Source: Chitinophaga pinensis (GTDB taxonomy: Bacteria; Bacteroidota; Bacteroidia; UKL13-3). From it: a stretch of 64,000 bases of DNA. The translations under genes and the position numbers were made by a program. The notes below the pieces were generated by a model that saw only the letters and a list, made by a program, of their open reading frames with translations, made no database searches and had not been told where the DNA came from. The stretch lies in assembly GCA_945870425.1 (NCBI GenBank), contig CAMBSD010000019.1, positions 1 through 64,000 of the forward strand. The letters are read 5' to 3'. Shown here in pieces: positions 4,189 through 51,386 of the stretch. Numbering within the stretch: the first letter of the stretch is position 1; each line of letters opens with the position of its first letter.

Positions 4189-4492
4189 ACCACCTCAGAC
4201 AACTTAGTTAACCTAAGAAAAAGTTCAGATGTCCTTAGGTTTCTTAGGTGGTGAATTAAAAACAAATAAACCACCTTAGGCACCTTAGTTGAGCTAAGAT
4301 AAACTTAGATGCTCTTAGGTTTCTTAGGTGGTGAATTAAAAACAAATAAACCACCTTAGACACCTTAGTTGAGCTAAGATAAACTTAGATGCTCTTAGGT
4401 TTCTTAGGTGGTGAATTTAAAACAAATAAACCACCTTAGACACCTTAGCTAAGCTAAGATAAACTTAGATGTTCTTAGGTTTCTTAGGTGGT
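4189..4492. repeat. Repeat array, left half: four near-palindromic 63-64 bp units
   Basis: Units at 4189-4252, 4270-4332, 4350-4412 and 4430-4492 repeat every 80-81 bp, separated by an almost invariant 17-base A/T spacer. Each unit begins ACCACCT and ends AGGTGGT, and contains six CTTAG or CTAAG pentamers. Unit 1 is the most diverged; units 2 and 3 are almost identical; unit 4 carries the variant GCTAAGCTAAG shared with the first unit to the right of the gene. Spacers are identical rather than unique, so this is not a CRISPR. Confidence 0.95.
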
Positions 4493-4506
4493 GAAAAACA
4501 AACAAT

Positions 4507-4920
4507 ATGACTAAAGAAGATTTAGATGATTTGGAATATATAGTTACTGGGGCTTGCATTGAGGTTCATAAGGCTTTAGGTCCAGGTTTGCTAGAAAGTG
4601 TTTATCATAAATGTTTGAAACATGAACTGCACCTTCGAAAAATTAATTATAAGTCCGAAGTTATTGTTCCCGTAAATTATAAAGGTTTAGAAGTTGAAGC
4701 AGAGTTGCGTTGTGACTTTTTAATTGAGGATATTTTAGTACTTGAACTAAAAGCAGTAGATGCGGTTCATCCAATACATGAAGCACAGATTCTTACTTAT
4801 ATGAAATTATTAAAAATTCCCAAAGGGCTCTTGGTTAATTTCAATGCAACAAGTATTGTTCAAATTGGCAAGAAATCTTTTGTAAATGAAATATATAAAG
4901 AAAGATATTTAAAAGATTAA
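4507..4920 (+). CDS. GxxExxY family protein (PD-(D/E)xK nuclease-like)
   Basis: 137 residues. The family signature is visible as Gly27-LL-Glu30-SV-Tyr33. A PD-(D/E)xK-type core follows: Asp70 in RCDF, Glu80-x-Lys82 in LELKA, Gln94 in EAQILTYMK, then GLLVNF. This is the fold of many nucleases, and all the catalytic-type residues are kept, so the gene is not decayed. The start ATG lies 14 bases after repeat unit 4 and the stop codon touches unit 5 directly, so the gene replaces a spacer inside the array. Families of this type are often seen beside intergenic repeats. Activity and target are unknown; a role in spread or maintenance of the repeats is my inference. Confidence 0.88.
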   Translation: MTKEDLDDLEYIVTGACIEVHKALGPGLLESVYHKCLKHELHLRKINYKSEVIVPVNYKGLEVEAELRCDFLIEDILVLELKAVDAVHPIHEAQILTYMKLLKIPKGLLVNFNATSIVQIGKKSFVNEIYKERYLKD

Positions 4921-5144
4921 ACCACCTTAGGCACCTTGGCTAAGCTAAGATAAACCCATATGTTCTTAGGTTTCTTAGGTGGTGAATTAAAAACAAATAA
5001 ACCACCTTAGGCACCTTAGTTGAGCTAAGATAAACTTAGATGCTCTTAGGTTTCTTAGGTGGTGAATTAAAAAATAAACAAACCACCTTAGACATCTTAA
5101 TTAAACTAAGATAAACTTAGATGTTCTTAGGTTTCTTAGGTGGT
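4921..5144. repeat. Repeat array, right half: three near-palindromic 63 bp units
   Basis: Units at 4921-4983, 5001-5063 and 5082-5144 continue the array at 80-81 bp period. The unit at 5001 is identical to the unit at 4270. The unit at 4921 is the variant most like unit 4, with GCTAAGCTAAG and ATGTTC. The last unit is diverged, like unit 1. The array ends 15 bases before the ATG of the ABC exporter. Confidence 0.95.
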
Positions 5145-51194: not shown

Positions 51195-51386
51195 TTATTT
51201 TTTTGTAGCTTTTTTAGCGGCTTTTTTAGGAGCAGCTTTCTTAGCAGCAGCTTTCTTAGGAGCAGCTTTCTTAGGAGCGGCTTTTTTAGCGGCTTTTTTT
51301 GGAGCTGCTTTTTTAGGAGCGGCTTTTTTAGGAGCAGCACTCTTAGTTGGAGCTGCAGCTTTTTTTGTTTTTTTAGTTGTTGCCAT
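51195..51386 (-). CDS. Histone H1-like Lys/Ala/Pro-rich protein
   Basis: 63 residues made almost wholly of KKAAPKKA-type repeats (MATTKKTKKAAAPTKSAAPK onward). Net charge about +25. This is the composition of bacterial histone H1-like (Hc1-type) nucleoid proteins. The frame is certain because of the non-random third-base use and the terminator behind it, though the low-complexity DNA gives open frames on both strands. Binds DNA or RNA non-specifically. Confidence 0.75.
   Translation of the reverse strand: MATTKKTKKAAAPTKSAAPKKAAPKKAAPKKAAKKAAPKKAAPKKAAAKKAAPKKAAKKATKK

Follow-up and report, generated by a model that had tools for sequence, protein, structure and literature searches.

What is a regularly spaced array of palindromes doing around a small nuclease-like gene? 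The question is raised by a 64,000-nucleotide stretch of a Chitinophaga pinensis contig (the whole stretch analyzed here, referred to as the window), in which seven palindromic 64-bp units with a period of 80–81 bp surround a GxxExxY gene (4507–4920) at positions 4189–5144. The array had been noticed in an earlier note made from the DNA letters alone; it proved to be real, and its coordinates were confirmed. Its features are as follows:

4189–4252, no strand, palindromic unit 1 (diverged)
4269–4332, no strand, palindromic unit 2 (type A)
4272–4288, plus strand, left-arm word pair, example from unit 2: CACCTTAG-G-CACCTTAG
4314–4330, minus strand, right-arm inverted word pair of unit 2: CACCTAAG-AAACCTAAG
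4349–4412, no strand, palindromic unit 3 (type A)
4429–4492, no strand, palindromic unit 4 (type B), ending 14 bp 5′ of the gene
4507–4920, plus strand, GxxExxY gene, 137 aa, predicted minimal Cas4/RecB-like PD-(D/E)XK nuclease (D70, E80, K82, Q94)
4920–4983, no strand, palindromic unit 5 (type B), adjoining the stop codon
5000–5063, no strand, palindromic unit 6 (type A)
5081–5144, no strand, palindromic unit 7 (diverged)

Successive unit starts are 80, 80, 80, 491, 80 and 81 bp apart, and the inter-unit spacers are 17 bp long and near-identical to each other. Because the ATG lies 14 bases past unit 4 and the stop codon adjoins unit 5, the gene fills a spacer, as had been proposed. Each arm contains three related words that are inverted in the opposite arm: the first arm reads ACCACCTTAG-N-CACCTTAG-TT-GAGCTAAG and the opposite strand reads ACCACCTAAG-AA-ACCTAAG-AG-CATCTAAG. 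When as many as three mismatches are allowed, the window contains 14 occurrences of the word pair CACCTTAGNCACCTTAG, all 14 inside array units, compared to 0.31 occurrences expected; no shuffle reached 14. Elsewhere in the window (51208–51346), a 15/72-bp tandem repeat (AGCAGCTTTCTTAGG) contains CTTAGG, looks unrelated to the array and probably codes for a Lys/Ala-rich protein tail.

The units are ordered diverged-A-A-B-gene-B-A-diverged. The earlier note had given this order correctly and had taken the mirror symmetry as a sign of a [B-gene-B] cassette. As only two of the five inner units are of type B, their flanking the gene is a 1-in-10 chance and the mirror order carries little weight; the diverged end units 1 and 7 show no resemblance to each other. 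The argument from order is therefore weak, but the unit-gene-unit form itself recurs in Flavobacterium (L213) and Gemmatirosa (L217).

To what family does the enzyme belong? Profile searches assigned the ORF to PF13366 (E 6e-39; 133 bits against a curated cut-off of 22) and to TIGR04256, GxxExxY (E 7e-40; 136 bits against a curated cut-off of 35). Across 82 aligned GxxExxY sequences, G25, G27, E30, Y33, E80 and K82 are invariant and D70 is at least 90% conserved, so that the Asp70/Glu80/Lys82 residues reported as intact are all present and the D-E-x-K active site is kept. An AlphaFold2 model of the window protein (pLDDT 96.7) gave as its nearest solved folds SSO0001, which we take to be Cas4, and then lambda exonuclease, with E-values of 0.002 and above. 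Cas4-type nuclease profiles matched the protein weakly. Model and profiles together indicate a minimal Cas4/RecB-like PD-(D/E)XK nuclease, sharing fold and D-E-x-K active site with Cas4, RecB and lambda exonuclease but differing in its minimal 137-aa core and in the lack of cas genes among the surrounding ORFs. No Y1/HUH (RAYT) enzyme was matched in the profile searches, which returned only PDDEXK_3/GxxExxY and the weak Cas4-type profiles.

The family was present in 122 of 248 sampled Bacteroidota genomes, and nine GxxExxY pairs gave dN/dS values of 0.04–0.19; the gene is under purifying selection. Two GxxExxY genes were found in close tandem at G255:C1:3199646-3200534 and again at G149:C4:68680-69767. 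Among mobile replicons the gene is rare, with none on 50,697 phage records and otherwise eight plasmid records and two viral contigs, and frequent carriage on phages or plasmids was rejected on these counts.

We then asked whether repeats accompany the gene elsewhere. Eighty GxxExxY loci were collected from genome contigs and reduced to 57 non-redundant loci, in which the 300 bp before and the 300 bp after the gene were compared by alignment alone (inverted match score of at least 15). The flanks formed inverted repeats in 43 of the 57 loci compared to 2 of 364 control ORFs from the same contigs, and GxxExxY loci and control ORFs differed with a Mann–Whitney P of 6.6e-34. The association between gene and repeat is strong, and terminal inverted repeats of the sort that define TIR transposons and MITEs do surround the gene. 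Orthologs without any such repeats, which the earlier note held would speak against a linked system, were a minority: about a quarter of loci have no recognizable paired arms, and of the six GxxExxY genes in the genome that contains the window, three lack arms on both sides.

The design of the repeat is shared across loci and its letters vary, in line with the mention in the earlier note of periodic palindromes near other GxxExxY genes. An arm consists of three direct copies of a 7–8-nt word at steps of 9–10 bp, with autocorrelation peaks at lags of 9, 10 and 19 bp. The word is CACCTTAG in the window and CATATAAG, CACATAG, CACAAAAG, CACAGAG or CGCAGAGG in other loci; flank patterns among the 80 loci include ACCATATAAG.CATATAAG..CATATAAG, ACCATAAAAGGCATAAAAG, ACCACATAG.CACATAG and ACCACAAAAGGCACAAAAG. 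Palindromes are usually 60–140 bp long (64 bp in the window), and the gene is enclosed either by a pair of inverted arms or by a pair of whole palindromes. In a second set, for which the PF13366 genes with the highest scores were taken from diverse Bacteroidota families (arm score of at least 14), 15 of 24 had arms, with words such as CACAGAG, CACGGAG, CGCAAAG and CGCAGATT. Plasmid records extended the comparison to other phyla: in Gemmatirosa (L217, Gemmatimonadota) the gene has, as in the window, a whole palindrome on each side, here built of the word CGCAGAGG, a Sphingomonas record has CGCGAAG word repeats upstream only (judged by eye), a Treponema record has only an 11-bp inverted match and a Fusobacteria record has a weak one. 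Searching for three words between fixed ends proved too restrictive: 19 genomes were matched, several of them by chance and with three unlike words. A word-specific pattern performed better.

Does the word go with the protein? Mapped onto the protein tree, word type required 14 changes, compared to a mean of 52 and a minimum of 45 after shuffling. Within Pedobacter, a single word change sufficed for the ten genes of the CACCTAAG type and the six of the CATATAAG type (shuffled mean 5.1; none of 500 shuffles as low as 1), and Pedobacter alluvionis has two genes (L064 and L076), one of each type, and each with the word of its own clade. The word thus tracks the clade of the protein and not the host. 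Delongbacteria and Neomarinimicrobiota also have the CATATAAG/CATAAAAG words, at a protein identity of about 0.7. As unconstrained intergenic DNA should retain no likeness at protein identities of 0.54–0.70, we infer that the words are under constraint. The arms are also linked to the gene, and part of the match between word and clade is inheritance, which counts against the reading that we favor below; since such linkage alone gives some correlation, the coupling is strong but indirect evidence for recognition. With this in mind, recognition of the word by the nuclease, through protein–word binding, is likely on the sequence evidence.

Do the palindromes also occur apart from the gene? The earlier note had called for a search for gene-free units, and the window's own genome, searched by family and by pattern, yielded a diverged array that lacks the gene, together with a lone palindrome of the window's word type on contig C3. 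Gene-free copies were counted in 200 Flavobacterium genomes using the CATATAAG pair. Genomes with PF13366 (n = 162) had a median of 8 arms compared to 0 in those without (n = 38), and at least four CATATAAG-type arms were present in 102 of 162 compared to 2 of 38 (Fisher P 1.5e-11); gene number and arm number were correlated (Spearman 0.66), in counts that include gene-flanking arms and statistics that ignore phylogeny and genome size. Two genomes without PF13366 still carry 12 and 15 arms. Repeat number thus covaries with the gene and, together with the inverted flanks across the family, bears out the proposal of a linked repeat–nuclease system. The solo palindromes are intergenic, with a median length of 82 bp, and are preceded by T-tracts and followed by A-tracts; some are conserved at orthologous sites. 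No target-site duplication was detected in 42 of them (no excess over shuffled pairs). The scattering of gene-free copies through gene-bearing genomes suggests an unrecognized repeat-and-nuclease system.

Presence and absence of the gene could be compared at one Flavobacterium site, between genes that, from our reading of the flanking proteins, are presumably sufE and sufT. Among 30 genomes, nine have the gene with arms (L213 with the unit-gene-unit form of the window), and in the others the site is occupied by a solo palindrome, by half an arm or by an unrelated insert, or is cleanly empty apart from a few bases; these states are interleaved on the sufE tree. L206 (G464:C231) has a second copy of the end of sufE immediately before the GxxExxY element, and a run of N separates the two copies. 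Gene-bearing and empty alleles therefore both exist at this site, as the homing-like spread suggested in the earlier note would have it. A homing endonuclease would cut gene-free palindromes and have the cassette inserted by repair from a gene-bearing copy, the repeats themselves spreading otherwise. Two findings agree with this mechanism: in the window, L213 and L217 the gene has whole units on both sides, and some sites that have the gene in one species have a solo palindrome in a related one. Others count against it: gene-free palindromes far outnumber genes (per gene-bearing genome, arms have a median of 8 and a maximum of 115, and genes a maximum of 12), sufE sites have often decayed to half arms and the multiple genes of a genome belong to different clades instead of being copies of one. 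We regard homing as improbable.

Another site has, in four species, a CGCAAAG palindrome whose loop contains a CATATAAG palindrome; no relative with the outer CGCAAAG palindrome alone was found for this nested element. For the window locus, no orthologous array site was found in its family by conserved gene order, and in the sole other genome of its genus the contig ends at the array.

Could the palindromes instead be operators or architectural sites? GxxExxY or another protein would bind the words, autoregulate and control or organize the loci that bear solo units, and mobility beyond ordinary duplication would be unnecessary. The coupling of word to protein, the intergenic solo units partly retained at orthologous sites and the low dN/dS are all compatible with such a role, as is the gene's setting: a co-directional gene precedes GxxExxY in 86% of loci compared to 63% of controls, with no bias downstream. 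The dN/dS values near 0.04 and the cross-species conservation at the sufE site would likewise suit a host function. A precedent exists in Geobacter metallireducens, in which class 2 sites of three tandem TCTCCGTS octamers, paired on opposite strands at variable distance, were interpreted in 2009 as IHF/HU (global regulator) sites specific to that genome, with no nuclease named in the portion of the paper available (PMC2700814). Read as its reverse complement, TCTCCGTS gives CACGGAG, a word found beside GxxExxY genes, and the Geobacter sites very probably belong to this type of repeat. Plain operators would not, however, be expected to show clean presence and absence at one site among close species, a nested element, a range of 0 to 115 arms within one genus or a partner with an intact nuclease active site, and we consider a purely regulatory role unlikely.

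The palindromes might alternatively act in the transcript, as hairpins for processing or stability, with the nuclease acting on RNA. The units fold at −18 to −25 kcal/mol and the co-directional setting implies transcription through the arms, but G-U-compatible arm mismatches are not in excess (177, compared to 181 mirror-class changes; transversions number 633), Rfam gave no match above threshold and the fold is that of DNA nucleases. Words rather than pairing seem to be conserved, which favors double-stranded DNA sites and makes an RNA role very hard to credit.

Among known systems, the closest likeness is to REPIN/RAYT (PMC3116915). There, too, short palindromes lie between genes in tens of copies, paired as inverted doublets whose loop varies and at times forming tandem arrays; matching copies surround the gene for a DNA enzyme, and enzyme and repeat co-vary. 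Dispersed intergenic inverted doublets that co-occur with an enzyme gene were found here as well. RAYTs, in contrast, are tyrosine HUH transposases and the present enzyme is a PD-(D/E)XK nuclease; a REPIN arm is a short REP hairpin, whereas the arm here is three tandem words and, with its many transversions, is not conserved as a stem. Because of this difference in enzyme fold and because stem pairing is not preserved in the arms, the system is not a member of REPIN/RAYT. MITEs and TIR transposons share inverted terminal arms, gene-bearing and gene-free forms and presence/absence between relatives, but here a transposase and target-site duplications are absent and the arms are built of repeated words. 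CRISPR arrays share a regular array adjoining a Cas4-like gene but differ from the 64-bp palindromic units, which have no cas1 or cas2 among the neighboring ORFs; CRISPR, which requires unique spacers, was ruled out by the near-identical 17-bp spacers.

On balance, we favor a REPIN/RAYT-like partnership in which the nuclease recognizes its clade's word and promotes the spread both of the palindromes and of the cassette that encodes it. The GxxExxY product would recognize this word on double-stranded DNA, the 9–10-bp word steps corresponding to roughly one DNA turn, and would nick or cut at or near palindromes. Through repair or copying, palindromes without the gene could then spread in trans, as could, now and then, the gene cassette, and tandem arrays like that of the window may arise by local unequal exchange. 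Mobilization of the palindromes by the nuclease is the step that we infer. A bolder version, which is conceivable though somewhat doubtful, is that GxxExxY proteins are the dedicated enzymes of a so far unrecognized kind of bacterial DNA, mobile or self-maintaining, that follows a word code: each clade would read its own 7–8-nt word, set three to an arm one DNA turn apart, and move the palindromes built of it; if true, this would be a transposase-free counterpart of REPIN/RAYT across several phyla.

GxxExxY is a named and common bacterial family without known function and with almost no literature, and the repeat supplies it with a testable substrate. No open-licence paper was found that links the nuclease to repeats, and earlier notice elsewhere is possible. 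The link explains many anonymous intergenic palindromes, suggests that PD-(D/E)XK nucleases, besides HUH transposases, may sustain dispersed palindromes and would provide, in the clade–word pairs, natural material from which to learn the basis of sequence choice in a small nuclease.

Several further arrangements were observed. At L281 (G078:C23:61445-62318) and L290 (G312:C4), CATATAAG arms or units bracket a non-GxxExxY ORF with a lipoprotein-like or signal-peptide-like start, as if the repeats were able to capture cargo. At L182–L184 (G137), in a genome with six PF13366 genes, direct same-strand CATCTAAG-type arms have other repeats between them. At L228, L230, L293 and L298 in Flavobacterium, the repeats GCTTCGACTTCGCTCAGCCTGA and TATTTCGCTCCTCTGGAGCTT recur in palindrome loops or at palindrome sites.
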